Assembly: GCA_945906815.1 (NCBI GenBank)
Contig: CAMDRT010000004.1
Coordinates: 62,001-126,000, forward strand
Source: Bordetella parapertussis
Lineage (GTDB): Bacteria; Pseudomonadota; Gammaproteobacteria; Burkholderiales; SG8-41
DNA: 64,000 nucleotides
Reading direction: 5' to 3'
The notes under the pieces: model-generated
Told to the model about the DNA's origin: nothing
Database searches by the model: none
Seen by the model: only the letters and a program-made list of their open reading frames with translations
Shown here: positions 2,026 through 50,814 of the stretch, piece by piece
How the letters are laid out: each line of letters begins with the position of its first letter
Numbering within the stretch: position 1 is the first letter of the stretch
Translations under genes and position numbers: made by a program

Positions 2026-2619
2026 TCAGGCCATGACTTTCAAACGCTTGAGTTCAAAATAACATTTGGCGCAGGCGCGCACATCGGCCAGCGCACGGTG
2101 CGCGCCGCTGAATTCTTCGTGAAATAGTTTGCGGTAGAGTTCCTGCAGCGTAGGCCACTTGTTTCCGTACGGGCCGGGTAGGCGGCAGTAATTCGTAGCC
2201 GATTGCATGGTGCATTTTCGTGGCCTGGCCTCGACGTGATTGGGGTAACCGGCACGCAGCAGTTCAGCGCCAAGAATTTTTTCGTCAAACTGCATATTGT
2301 GCGCGATCAGCACCAATGCATTACCGATGTCCGCCACCAGCGGATCAAGAATGGCCTTGATTGCAACCCCGTTTTGCAGTGCCAATGCGGTGCTAATGCC
2401 ATGAATCTTCGCCGCAGCGGGTGGTATGCTGTAGCCGTCCGGTTTGACGATGTGCTCGGCGCTGGCGATTTCGTTGCCTTGCTCGTCGGCGACCAGCCAC
2501 GCTATTTGCACCAGCCGGGGCCAGTTTTCAAAATCGGACGCCGGCGCCTTGTAGTTCTTCGGAATGCCGGTCGTTTCTGTGTCAAAGAACAGGTACATGG
2601 GGCTTCGGATCAGACTCAC
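2026..2619 (-). CDS. DEDD-type 3'-5' exonuclease (DnaQ-like)
   Basis: The three exonuclease motifs are all present: Exo I as FFDTETTG near residue 12, Exo II as HNMQFDEK near 110, and Exo III as HRALADVRA near 180, where His and Asp fit the DEDDh subgroup. At 197 residues it is a stand-alone exonuclease domain. The far-upstream start is GTG with no ribosome site; the ATG at 2598 (MYLFFDTETTG) is equally plausible. The likely role is DNA or RNA 3' trimming or proofreading-like repair. It lies downstream of the HigBA-like pair on the same strand, with 22 bases between. Confidence 0.85.
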   Translation of the reverse strand: MSLIRSPMYLFFDTETTGIPKNYKAPASDFENWPRLVQIAWLVADEQGNEIASAEHIVKPDGYSIPPAAAKIHGISTALALQNGVAIKAILDPLVADIGNALVLIAHNMQFDEKILGAELLRAGYPNHVEARPRKCTMQSATNYCRLPGPYGNKWPTLQELYRKLFHEEFSGAHRALADVRACAKCYFELKRLKVMA

Positions 2620-2641
2620 GAGCTCAGTGGCGGTGCGCGGG

Positions 2642-2902
2642 TTATGCCGCGCTCTTAAGTGGAACCTCCCAGCCGGGAAACACGAGCACGGCAGGATGGC
2701 ACTTCAGAGCGCGGGCAAAGACCTTTGCGCGTTCAACACCCAAATTCACTCTACCGTTTTCAATAGCAGAAATGGTGGCTTGAGGAATGCCCGTAAGTTC
2801 GGAAAGTTGGCTTTGGCTCAATTCCTGGAGTTCACGCAAAATACGAACAGACTCTCCCACTGAGACTTCAACTCGCTTTTTTGCAGGCCTAAACTCTTTC
2901 AT
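2642..2902 (-). CDS. HigA-like antitoxin, XRE helix-turn-helix
   Basis: An 86-residue protein with one XRE-type helix-turn-helix: LSQSQLSELTGIPQATISAI spans helices 2-3 around residues 29-48. The start at 2902 (MKEFRP) is chosen because GGAGG lies 7 bases upstream, inside the last codons of the toxin gene. A longer reading begins at 2923. The stop of the toxin and this ATG are one base apart, so the two are translationally linked. By family knowledge it neutralises the toxin and represses the shared promoter at about 3194-3223. Confidence 0.83.
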   Translation of the reverse strand: MKEFRPAKKRVEVSVGESVRILRELQELSQSQLSELTGIPQATISAIENGRVNLGVERAKVFARALKCHPAVLVFPGWEVPLKSAA

Positions 2903-2903
2903 G

Positions 2904-3188
2904 TCATGGCCTCCGGTAATCATGCGCGGTTACTGGAATGACTTGAATCAGCAGCAGATTGGCGGCACCTCGGTAAATCACCCGCCACTGCAGCCCGAGC
3001 CTGGAGGAGCGATGGTCTTTCCACTCCCCAGACAGCGCTTCGTCGTGAAACCCCTTGATGGCACGCAATCCCGGCGGCCCGGATAATCTGGCGATGTCTT
3101 TCCATTTTTCGTAACGTTTCATAACCTCAATGGGAACAAAGCCCGACAACTGCTTATCCACGCGACGGTGCTCTACGATTTGCCACAT
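2904..3188 (-). CDS. RelE/HigB-like type II toxin
   Basis: A 94-residue basic protein. Features of the RelE/ParE fold include the C-terminal strand pair around LGLQWRVIYRG and LLLIQVIPVTAHDYRRP, and the sequence KDIARLSGPPGLRAIKGF before it. Such toxins are ribosome-associated mRNA endonucleases. The toxin-first order matches HigBA rather than RelBE. It reads from a promoter immediately upstream that carries a palindromic operator in its spacer. ParE-type gyrase poisoning cannot be excluded from sequence. Confidence 0.8.
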   Translation of the reverse strand: MWQIVEHRRVDKQLSGFVPIEVMKRYEKWKDIARLSGPPGLRAIKGFHDEALSGEWKDHRSSRLGLQWRVIYRGAANLLLIQVIPVTAHDYRRP

Positions 3189-3193
3189 ACTGC

Positions 3194-3223
3194 ATTATGT
3201 ATATACCAATAATGGTATGTCAA
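3194..3223 (-). promoter_or_regulatory. Sigma-70-like promoter of the HigBA pair with internal operator
   Basis: On the minus strand TTGACA (3223-3218) is followed after 18 bases by CATAAT (3199-3194). That is a full -35 match and a 5/6 match at -10. The toxin ATG at 3188 starts only about 6 bases beyond the -10 box, so the message must be very short-leadered or leaderless. The spacer contains a perfect palindrome at 3203-3218, the natural place for HigA repression. Confidence 0.75.
3203..3218. promoter_or_regulatory. Palindromic operator 1 of the HigBA pair
   Basis: ATACCA-ATAA-TGGTAT, a perfect 6-base inverted repeat with a 4-base centre, lying between the -35 and -10 boxes of the toxin promoter. 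Binding here would block RNA polymerase. The assignment to the antitoxin is inferred from position. Confidence 0.7.
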
Positions 3224-3224
3224 G

Positions 3225-3237
3225 TACAAGTCTTGTA
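3225..3237. promoter_or_regulatory. Palindromic operator 2 of the HigBA pair
   Basis: TACAAG-T-CTTGTA, a perfect 6-base inverted repeat with one central base, directly upstream of the -35 box. Its sequence differs from operator 1, so it may bind another regulator or serve the divergent gene at 3308. Confidence 0.5.
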
Positions 3238-3307
3238 ATTTCTAATTTTGCCGTGCAGTATAGGCATGTGCAGCGCAGGCTACCCGTGCCCAACCGGAGT
3301 AAGCACT

Positions 3308-16705: not shown

Positions 16706-16852
16706 ACCGTGTGCGACTTGCGGAGGGAAAAAATAGGAAATTCAAACACCCCTTTTTACTGATTGGACTATATCGCCACACCAACATACGGTCAAACAGG
16801 ATAATCAAGATCAAAAGCGGTGTAAATTACGACGGATAAAATAGAGGCTTTC

Positions 16853-17395
16853 ATGACCAACCCCACGAGCGAAGAACTGGGTTTCATCGACCCCACCGCT
16901 GGCACTGGCCGCAAAAAAGTGCCGCTTGCGCCGCGTCCCGCCGATCTCGCGGGCAAAGTGGTAGGGCTGCTCGACAACACCAAGGAACAGGGCAATCTGA
17001 TCCTTGAAACCATCGGCGCCACACTGATGGAGAAATACGGCGTCGCGCGCGTGGTCACGCGGCGCAAAGAACACTACTCCAAGCCGGCTGCCGATGTGCT
17101 GATCGACGAGATGGCCAAGGAGGTTGATGTCGCCATTGCGGCGCTGGGCGGATGAGGCTCCTGCACGTTGTGCAGTGTGCACGACGCCATCGAATTTGAA
17201 AAACGCGGCATTCCAGCGGCGGTGATCATCACGCAGGCCTTTCGCAATGCCGCAATATTTCAGTTCAGGAGCAAAGGCATGGAAGGCCACGCTTACGTCG
17301 AAATGCCGCACCCGGTGAGCAATCTTTCCGCCGACGAGATGCGCGCGTTGACGCTGACGTTCGTGAGTGACGTCGCGCGCCAGTTGCAAGAATAG
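16853..17395 (+). CDS. UGSC-family selenoprotein, UGA read as selenocysteine at codon 101
   Basis: Two short open frames, 16853-17155 and 17156-17395, are in the same frame and separated only by TGA at 17153-17155. Read through, they give a 180-residue protein with [19 protein letters not shown], the signature of the UGSC (seleno)protein family known from metagenomic selenoproteome surveys. U101 and C104 form a UxxC pair like a thiol redox site, with C107 nearby. Upstream, [18 protein letters not shown] is the usual N-terminal strand of the family. A hairpin at 17167-17185 fits a bacterial SECIS. AGAGG precedes the ATG. The exact reaction is unknown. A nonsense mutation is the alternative, but the UGA falls exactly on the motif's U. 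Confidence 0.9.
17167..17185 (+). promoter_or_regulatory. Candidate bacterial SECIS hairpin of the UGSC gene
   Basis: GTTGTGCA (17167-17174), loop GTG (17175-17177), TGCACGAC (17178-17185) gives 8 pairs including one G-T pair. The loop begins 20 bases after the UGA and opens with GU, matching the bacterial SECIS rule of a short stem with a GU-containing loop in the coding region downstream of UGA. An alternative CTGCAC/GTGCAG stem at 17161-17175 competes. Confidence 0.7.
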
Positions 17396-47905: not shown

Positions 47906-48240
47906 GAGGAGGGCAGTCGATGTCGGAAAGCGTTATCTGGAATAGCTGGAGTTGCCGGGGGGTTGGTGCAGCGCGTGATTAGGTACTGTGGCACGCTCGC
48001 GCCTGATTCGTGCAGGGCACGATGATAGCAATACCTGGGCGTCCACAGGAATAGCCCTGTGTCAAAATAAAAATATAAGCAAAAACAATTACTTAATAGC
48101 GTAGCGCAGTGCTGCGCAAAGAAATATGTCGCAATGCGAACTTTGCAAAACATCGGCCGCGTGTAGCCGGGCAAGTTGATCAAGGGCACCCTAGCCGTGG
48201 CAAACGGATTACGATAGCGAAAATCACTAAAGGAGGCGCG
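47906..48240. other. Intergenic region between divergent CoxG and Bug genes
   Basis: No supported gene. It is AT-rich around 48060-48100 (AAAATAAAAATATAAGC), which fits promoters for one or both genes. A perfect 14-base palindrome, GCGCAG-TG-CTGCGC, lies at 48104-48117. A 95-codon minus-strand open frame here (47902-48189) has no family features. Confidence 0.6.
48104..48117. promoter_or_regulatory. Perfect 14-base palindrome upstream of a Bug gene
   Basis: GCGCAGTGCTGCGC, 124 bases before the Bug start. Could be an operator or a small hairpin; no regulator gene is adjacent. Confidence 0.4.
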
Positions 48241-49230
48241 ATGTTTTTATGGTATTCACGGCTGCGGTCCACACTGTTCATCGCAGTCACAACGGTCGCT
48301 GCGACCACGCCCGTGCTGGGTTTCGCGCAGAAAAGCCAGCACTACCCCAACAAGCCGATTCGAATAGTGACCGCATCGGCAGCCAGCCAAAGCGACATCG
48401 TGACGCGCTTGATCGGCGACAAAATGAGCGTAGGTTTTGGACAGCCGGTGGTGATAGAGAATCGCGCGGGGGCGGGTGGCGCGATCGGCGCGAACGTTGT
48501 TGCCAAGGCGACAGCGGACGGCTACACCCTCTTATTGCAATCGAGCCAATTCGCGATCCGTGCGGCGATCCATCCCAACCTGCCTTACGATTCGCACCGA
48601 GATTTCACCGGCGTTACTCAGATCGGGTATTCCACCCAGGTATTGATAGTAGCGCCGTCCCTTGCCGCGAGATCGGCCAAGGCGTTCATCGCATGGGCAC
48701 AGGCGCGGCCAGACCAAACGCTGTTTAGCACCAGCGGCGCCGGTACCGGTACCCACATGGACGTGGAGCGATTCCGCTTTGCCGCCGGTATCAAGGCGCG
48801 ACACGTAGCGTTTAAGACCACGTCGGAATCCATGATAGAGGTTGTGGCTGGCCGCACACACTTTGCCGCTGCCCCGCTGGGACCGGCTTTGCCCTTGATC
48901 AAGGACGGGAAATTAATGGCATTGGCGGTGTTTACGCCACAGCGCTCGCCGCTATTGCCGGATACGCCGGCTATGGCAGAAGTTTTGCCCGGCTATCAGC
49001 GGGATGGCTCGTACGGTCTGCTGGCACCGGCAAAAACGCCGCGCCCGCTTCTGCATCAGCTCGCGCAAGAAGTGGCGCGCATTGTTGGGTTACCCGACAT
49101 CCAGGAACGCATGCGCATCATGGGCTTTGTTCCCGCCACCAGCACGCCGGAGGAATACGACAAGATACGGCGCGCCGAGATCGAGACCTTTACCCAAGTG
49201 GCCAAGCTGGTTGGACTGCGCACGCAGTGA
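48241..49230 (+). CDS. Bug/TctC-family periplasmic solute receptor
   Basis: 329 residues from ATG 48241, with AAGGAGG 5 bases upstream. Signal peptide LFIAVTTVAATTPVLGFAQ, mature start near KSQHYPNKPIRIVTASAASQ. It diverges from the standard VPFPPGG. ENRAGAGGAIGANV near 73. HVAFKTTSES near 185 replaces HVPYKG. It shares GTGTHMDVERFRFAAG with the 11445 Bug protein, which has GSNTHMTGERFRFAAG, so the two form a subfamily. No enzyme gene follows on this strand. Confidence 0.9.
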   Translation: MFLWYSRLRSTLFIAVTTVAATTPVLGFAQKSQHYPNKPIRIVTASAASQSDIVTRLIGDKMSVGFGQPVVIENRAGAGGAIGANVVAKATADGYTLLLQSSQFAIRAAIHPNLPYDSHRDFTGVTQIGYSTQVLIVAPSLAARSAKAFIAWAQARPDQTLFSTSGAGTGTHMDVERFRFAAGIKARHVAFKTTSESMIEVVAGRTHFAAAPLGPALPLIKDGKLMALAVFTPQRSPLLPDTPAMAEVLPGYQRDGSYGLLAPAKTPRPLLHQLAQEVARIVGLPDIQERMRIMGFVPATSTPEEYDKIRRAEIETFTQVAKLVGLRTQ

Positions 49231-49314: not shown

Positions 49315-49773
49315 TTAAAGCTTGCCCAACTCCGCCAGCAACTCTTTACTCTCCGGAATCGTGCCCGGCTCGTACACCTTGGCGAACCGCACGACGCCTT
49401 GTTCGTCAAGCACATACGCCGCGCGCTTATCAAAACCTTTTTCTTCGTTCAATACGCCATAGGCCGTGCCCACCGCTGCATGCGGCCAGTAATCCGACAG
49501 CAGGGGGAACGGCAGTCCGCCTAATTGTTCGGCCCATGCTTTAAGGCTGGGGATAGTGTCTGCGCTGATTTGCAAGATCTCAACGTTCAATGCTTTGAAT
49601 GCCTCGTAGTTCTCACGGAACCCGGATACTTGATTCTTTCAGCCACCGGTAAAGGCAAACGGCAGAAACGACACCACGGTCTTGCGACCTTTGAAACTCG
49701 CGAGCGACACCGAGGCTCCGGTGTGTGCGGCGAGCGTGAAATCCGGCGCGGCTGCGCCTACTTGCACGGACAT
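49315..49773 (-). CDS. Peroxiredoxin with selenocysteine (UGA) at the peroxidatic position
   Basis: One continuous frame from ATG 49773 (AGGAG 7 bases upstream) to 49315, interrupted only by TGA at 49641-49639. Read through, it is 152 residues. MSVQVGAAAPDFTLAAHTGA starts the AhpC/TSA fold. PFAFTGGUKNQVSGFRENYE (residues 38-57) matches PxxxTxxC, where C is the peroxidatic residue that reduces peroxides; here it is U45. The product contains no Cys at all, so it would be a 1-Sec enzyme needing an external reductant. A GU-loop hairpin follows the UGA. Sec-containing Prx is a known bacterial selenoprotein family. A UGA-truncated pseudogene is the alternative, but all other family positions are intact. 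Confidence 0.88.
49606..49629 (-). promoter_or_regulatory. Candidate bacterial SECIS hairpin of the Sec-peroxiredoxin gene
   Basis: On the minus strand, GTTC (49621-49618), loop CGTGA (49617-49613), GAAC (49612-49609), extended by a G-T pair and an outer GTA/TAC helix. The loop G and U are 23 and 24 bases after the UGA, a typical bacterial SECIS distance. The stem is shorter than that of the UGSC gene. Confidence 0.55.
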
Positions 49774-49923: not shown

Positions 49924-50814
49924 GTGCCGTCTATGTTGACCCACATCCAAGCCGGCGTGCTGGATATCGCCTACGAAGAAAACGGCCCCGCCAACGGCAA
50001 TCCGGTCGTATTACTACACGGCTTTCCGTATGATATTCACGCCTACCACGAGGCGACGCCGCTCTTGGTCGCGCAGGGTTGTCGCGTGCTTACGCCTTAC
50101 CTGCGTGGGTACGGTCCGACACGTTTTCTAGCGGCCGCCACGCCGCGCTCGGGCCAGCAGGCAGTGCTCGCGCATGATCTGCTCGCATTCATGGATGCGC
50201 TCGCGATTCCGAACGCAGTACTGGCTGGTTACGACTGGGGTGGCCGCGCGGCGTGCATCGTCGCCGCTTTGTGGCCCGAACGTGCGCGCGGACTGGTGAC
50301 GGTGAACGGTTACAACGTCCAGGACATCGCGAACTCGGGCAAGCCGCATGCGCCGGAAAACGAGCACCGGCACTGGTACCAGTATTATTTTCACAGCGAG
50401 CGCGGACGCGCCGGCCTCGCAAAATACCGCCGCGAATTCTGCAAGCTGCTGTGGCAATTGTGGTCTCCCAACTGGCGTTTCGATGATGCAACCTACGAGC
50501 GTACCGCACCCGCATTCGACAATCCGGATTTTGTGGACGTCGTCATCCATTCCTACCGGCACCGCTACGCGCTGGTCCCCGGTGATCCCGCTGTCGAGGA
50601 CACCGAGCGCCGCCTCATCGCACAGCCGCCGATCACCGTCCCGACTATCGTGCTTGAGGGCGATGGCGACGGCGTCGCGGGTGTCGGCGGCAGCGCGCAC
50701 CATCGCCGGCATTTCACTGCCGCCTACGAACGCCGCGAAATTCCGCTAGTCGGCCACAATCTGCCGCAGGAAGCGCCGCAGGATTTCGCATTGGCAGTGC
50801 TCGCGTTGGTCTGA
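49924..50814 (+). CDS. Alpha/beta hydrolase, Asp-nucleophile (epoxide hydrolase/haloalkane dehalogenase-like)
   Basis: 296 residues from a GTG; an ATG three codons on is also possible. Oxyanion motif VVLLHGFPYDIHAYHEA near 28. The nucleophile elbow is AGYDWGGRAACIV near 102, so Asp rather than Ser attacks, as in epoxide hydrolases and dehalogenases. The catalytic His is in VGHNLPQEAPQ near 279. A cap domain sits between (RHWYQYYFHSERGRAGLAKY near 157). It is divergent from the peroxiredoxin gene. Confidence 0.87.
   Translation: MPSMLTHIQAGVLDIAYEENGPANGNPVVLLHGFPYDIHAYHEATPLLVAQGCRVLTPYLRGYGPTRFLAAATPRSGQQAVLAHDLLAFMDALAIPNAVLAGYDWGGRAACIVAALWPERARGLVTVNGYNVQDIANSGKPHAPENEHRHWYQYYFHSERGRAGLAKYRREFCKLLWQLWSPNWRFDDATYERTAPAFDNPDFVDVVIHSYRHRYALVPGDPAVEDTERRLIAQPPITVPTIVLEGDGDGVAGVGGSAHHRRHFTAAYERREIPLVGHNLPQEAPQDFALAVLALV

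Follow-up and report, generated by a model that had tools for sequence, protein, structure and literature searches.

The gene at 49315 to 49773 on the minus strand of the window, the 64,000-nucleotide stretch of DNA analyzed here, very probably encodes an AhpE-like peroxiredoxin (Prx) with a single selenocysteine (Sec), whose internal UGA codon would be recoded through SelB and a SECIS element within the gene. We give this reading a probability of about 96%. The recoded frame, most of the decoding machinery, and the conservation of the UGA have direct support from the sequence, as does the constraint acting on the protein beyond the UGA and on the presumed SECIS bases. The features of the gene are as follows.

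49315..49773, minus strand: gene predicted to encode the Sec-containing AhpE-like peroxiredoxin; start codon ATG at 49773, 152 codons, then a TAA stop
49639..49641, minus strand: UGA read as Sec45, the peroxidatic position of PxxxTxxU, from the frame and the aligned TGA in orthologues
49605..49624, minus strand: hairpin with seven pairs and loop CGUGA, +15 to +34 downstream of the UGA; candidate SECIS
49615..49616, minus strand: GU in the loop of the candidate SECIS, +23/+24

Translation of the minus strand from 49773 to 49315 gives 152 residues with one internal stop, a TGA between PFAFTGG and KNQVSGF, and the read-through protein matches Pfam AhpC-TSA over residues 5-130 (2.8e-35; 121.4 bits, with a gathering cut-off of 26). 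This bears out an earlier note on this DNA, which described a UGA interrupting an otherwise complete 152-residue AhpC/TSA protein at PFAFTGGU. The same note held that the product has no other cysteine, and apart from position 45, where the UGA stands, the translation indeed contains none.

Conservation of the UGA and of the protein beyond it

At a threshold of 1e-20, 62 of the 74 family genomes gave a match, 61 of them by an orthologue (the window's own counted) and one, G040, by a paralogue only, which is 41% identical. Orthologues and paralogues together make up 73 match rows in the family genomes, of which 72 contain one internal TGA; the remaining row is a fragment that starts at residue 46, after the site. 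The exact site is TGA in each of the 30 loci fetched from the family search, including the window's own. In 56 fetched loci (L011-L066), the aligned position is TGA in 50 and Cys in 5, and one fragment begins past the site. The 50 TGA loci include the window gene (L011), a locus from a Chloroflexi record (L062), and several genomes fetched from two collections, while the five Cys homologues are about 45% identical or less. All 49 ortholog loci that cover the site (L011-L058 and L060, counting the window gene and some duplicates) have TGA there, including those with as little as 64% protein identity. Alignment of Sec and Cys forms, which had been proposed as a check, thus places TGA in the orthologues and Cys only in more distant homologues. 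When Cys orthologues were sought in 369 sampled genomes of the class, only the window's own genome matched at 1e-25, a threshold that would miss weaker homologues, and the matches among plasmid records (219 records) were all under 60% identity.

Several other observations were made in these searches. Ten family genomes contain TGA-bearing peroxiredoxin matches that form a second, divergent group, 11 in all and 39-45% identical; in 9 of these genomes the orthologue is present as well. The match in the Chloroflexi record (L062, 3001-3444), from another phylum, is 40% identical and likewise carries TGA at the aligned position. Close orthologues were present in six MAG records (L041, L042, L044, L049, L051, and L055) titled Bordetella parapertussis or Klebsiella pneumoniae; these labels are probably wrong, because the genes cluster with sequences from uncultured betaproteobacteria.

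After 8 of the 56 loci (fragments and distant homologues) had been omitted and identical ones merged, the 48 orthologues yielded 35 distinct sequences. Pro38, Thr42, U45, and Arg117 are invariant in all 35, and cysteine is lacking in 28 and occurs once in 7, at four different places. A simple Nei-Gojobori count, with saturated pairs dropped (488 of 595 pairs usable before the TGA and 538 after it), gave dN/dS values of 0.17 before and 0.13 after the codon, calculated as ratios of means over the 35 distinct orthologues. By this measure, purifying selection acts strongly on the sequence downstream of the TGA, which argues that the product does not end at residue 44, since the next 107 residues would then not be conserved.

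Among the alternatives, the one that survives best, though we consider it very improbable, is termination at the UGA, with reinitiation at a second start yielding a separate C-terminal domain. A TTG-started open frame of 91 amino acids at 49590-49315 would suit such a restart, but a thioredoxin-fold protein would be severed through its active site, and residues 46-61, which lie between the UGA and the TTG, are conserved too, with nine of them invariant in the 35 orthologues. A lone in-frame stop in a gene from a draft genome often signals a pseudogene or an assembly error, here TGA for TGC or TGT, yet we regard this as even less credible given a TGA retained throughout the 49 covering loci and a dN/dS of about 0.13 downstream of it. 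The earlier note had named a base error at 49641-49639 as the observation that would overturn the Sec reading; such an error is excluded because orthologues from other assemblies also have TGA at the aligned site.

Decoding machinery, other candidate selenoproteins, and the candidate SECIS

The assembly to which the window belongs comprises 4.77 Mb in 97 contigs and is 95% complete. Three components of the Sec machinery were found together on contig C12, which runs counter to the other refuting observation named in the earlier note, an assembly lacking such machinery.

C12:4683-6038: selA, adjoining selB on the same strand, 578 bits
C12:2566-4590: selB, on the same strand as selA, 456 bits
C12:1467-1557: tRNA-Sec (selC), 75.8 bits, gathering score 47

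The 13 further tRNA-Sec matches all fell under the gathering score of 47, and among 14 control genomes the cut-off of the selA profile was passed by E. coli alone. No selD above the cut-off was found in the assembly, so that the search for sel genes suggested by the earlier note succeeded for selA, selB, and tRNA-Sec but not for selD. Two TIGR00476 matches, both under the cut-off, were considered as selD and rejected, their open frames reading as thiL-like and purM-like. The gene is present in 13 of 14 genus genomes, the exception being the window's own. Within the 3.9-kb selD neighborhood of a relative (L077), bases 2533-3307 align to contig C57 from base 106 onward; this segment starts some 110 bases after the selD match of L077. 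The 1.5 kb preceding selD in this relative gave just a 39-base match elsewhere in the window's genome. As the post-selD DNA of the relative begins at base 106 of C57, selD was probably lost at a contig break, and its absence is probably an assembly gap. Taken together, the sel genes in the assembly and the TGA kept in the orthologues support the Sec reading of the codon that had been put forward from the window alone.

Two further observations concern these loci. On the minus strand of contig C12, selB and tRNA-Sec flank a gene that resembles thioredoxin reductase (L002:1634-2542); its score against TIGR01292 is 225 bits, below the cut-off of 343, and nothing ties it to the window peroxiredoxin. 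In all 12 fetched genus loci (L077-L088; 12 of the 13 selD loci), SelD is a selenoprotein in its own right (GGGUGCK), and the bases after its UGA are very alike among these 12.

Within the family, selA matches at 1e-60 were obtained in 67 of the 74 genomes. The Sec-Prx gene and selA are associated: both occur in 59 genomes, selA alone in 8, the Prx gene alone in 3, and neither in 4 (Fisher p 0.011, in a test that ignores relatedness and a table that counts G040, with its paralogue only, as having the gene). The three genomes with the Prx gene but without a selA match are 84, 88, and 72% complete.

The window holds a second selenoprotein gene.

16826..17395, plus strand: UGSC family open frame, second selenoprotein of the window; TGA 17153-17155; NF041046

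With 143.1 bits against NCBIfam NF041046 (cut-off 125) and a TGA at 17153, this open frame agrees with the claim that a UGSC gene is the window's second selenoprotein, and, as a different protein from Prx, it provides independent support for Sec decoding. On contig C10, a TlpA/ResA-like gene (C10:1506-1859; L075) has an in-frame TGA at its redox site, WATWUxxC, and adjoins a gene for an apparently exported peroxiredoxin (C10:2033-2440; L071), which likewise has an in-frame TGA at the redox site, AFTKTU. The assembly thus has at least four candidate selenoproteins, two in the window and two on C10.

The candidate SECIS coincides with a stretch of unusual constraint. Codons 51-56 (+16 to +33) have a synonymous observed/expected ratio of 0.0 in the 35 distinct orthologues, compared with 0.785 for the whole gene and 0.52 for the lowest nonoverlapping window. 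RNAalifold applied to 22 chosen sequences gave a seven-pair hairpin from +15 to +34 in which the last loop base is A or C. Two of the 22 lack its outermost pair, and compensatory changes number zero, because the hairpin scarcely varies. The 50-base fold is no stabler than shuffled sequences (z 0.72; 150 of 200 shuffles equally or more stable). The hairpin with a GU 23-24 bases after the UGA that had been described earlier is thus seen again with its loop GU and has synonymous conservation in its favor, but its folding energy is unremarkable and it remains a candidate SECIS; the support for this candidate comes from sequence constraint in the expected place and not from structure statistics. 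In the fdhF SECIS of E. coli, the GU that contacts SelB is at the same place, +23/+24. This spacing is not common to the other candidates checked here, as the UGSC gene has GU at +20 and +22 and the C10 peroxiredoxin gene has none from +1 to +38. An Rfam gathering scan of the window, which is not suited to a gene-specific SECIS, gave no matches.

A reassignment of UGA to Cys or Trp in the lineage, with no SECIS recoding, would account for a UGA at the Cys position of homologues but is hardly tenable: UGA is the terminal stop of the same gene in 15 of the 35 distinct orthologues and therefore still means stop in this lineage, SelA, SelB, and tRNA-Sec are present, and synonymous sites are constrained in the stretch where the SECIS must lie.

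Enzyme class, proposed mechanism, and relation to known systems

The best solved chains for the window protein are the MT2298/Rv2238c peroxiredoxins (E 1.3e-32, residues 3-142), which we take to be AhpE, and the first two-Cys chain follows at 4.4e-17. Against the NCBIfam PrxU equivalog NF040737 (length 233), the protein scores 83.2 bits, below the cut-off of 270, which places it outside the PrxU subfamily. In light of the wide margin for MT2298/Rv2238c and a score far under the PrxU cut-off, we refer to the protein as AhpE-like, an assignment drawn from sequence matches among solved chains.

Sec insertion itself and the peroxidase chemistry would be expected from family knowledge, and the following mechanism can be proposed. 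The protein would be a one-Sec, AhpE-like peroxiredoxin with no evident signal peptide. SelB would deliver Sec-tRNA to UGA codon 45, directed by the in-gene SECIS hairpin just downstream. Sec45, sharing a pocket with Pro38, Thr42, and Arg117, would attack the peroxide and become a selenenic acid. No resolving Cys is conserved across the 35 distinct orthologues, and hence an outside thiol would have to reduce the selenenic acid; glutathione/glutaredoxin or thioredoxin may serve, although the identity of this thiol is a guess. To look for conserved neighbors that could name the reductant, the gene neighborhood was compared between the window gene and 18 named loci with flanks of up to 3 kb. The Prx gene recurs in all 18, and a neighboring receptor-like frame (48109-49230) recurs in 11, with about 50% identity, whereas a hydrolase-like frame (49924-50814) had no match in the 18 loci; both names are our reading of the neighboring frames.

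It is conceivable, although we would put the odds slightly below even, that all of this belongs to one larger picture, in which an AhpE-type one-Sec Prx has become fixed in one uncultured betaproteobacterial family, with no Cys orthologue seen there and an external thiol in place of the resolving Cys, as part of a wider set of Sec-containing proteins of redox function in this lineage (SelD, UGSC, the apparently exported TxxU peroxiredoxin, and the TlpA-like UxxC protein). If this is true, the clade would depend on selenium for a peroxidase. The gene adds a well-supported Sec peroxiredoxin of the AhpE-like subclass, and an annotation in which the TGA ends the protein would break the gene in two or miss it. 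In addition, the presumed SECIS is tightly conserved within an otherwise variable gene and may offer a natural test of the SelB requirements in this lineage.

A Sec peroxiredoxin with TxxU is an already known kind of protein, here kept within a lineage. Passages of a 2008 ocean survey (PMC2398784) and of a 2026 review (PMC13188914) include the Prx TxxU and UGSC selenoprotein families. Novelty may lie in the AhpE-like subclass and in the regularity of its retention in the family. Among the titles in an incomplete literature collection, searches for AhpE or 1-Cys peroxiredoxin with selenocysteine gave none about a bacterial Sec form, and searches for the Burkholderiales selenoproteome and for UGSC plus peroxiredoxin selenoproteins gave none on an AhpE-like Sec subclass.

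Compared with AhpE (MT2298/Rv2238c), the window protein has the Pro, the Thr, the peroxidatic residue, and the Arg in alignment, but the peroxidatic residue is Cys in AhpE and would be Sec here. The reductant of actinobacterial AhpE is mycothiol/mycoredoxin, which is not expected in this lineage. The Sec Prx proteins (PF00578, TxxU), such as that of Eubacterium acidaminophilum, share with the window protein the AhpC/TSA fold and Sec in PxxxTxxU, as passages of both sources describe them (PMC13188914, PMC2398784). In contrast to the Eubacterium acidaminophilum type, however, the window protein is shorter and has no conserved second Cys.
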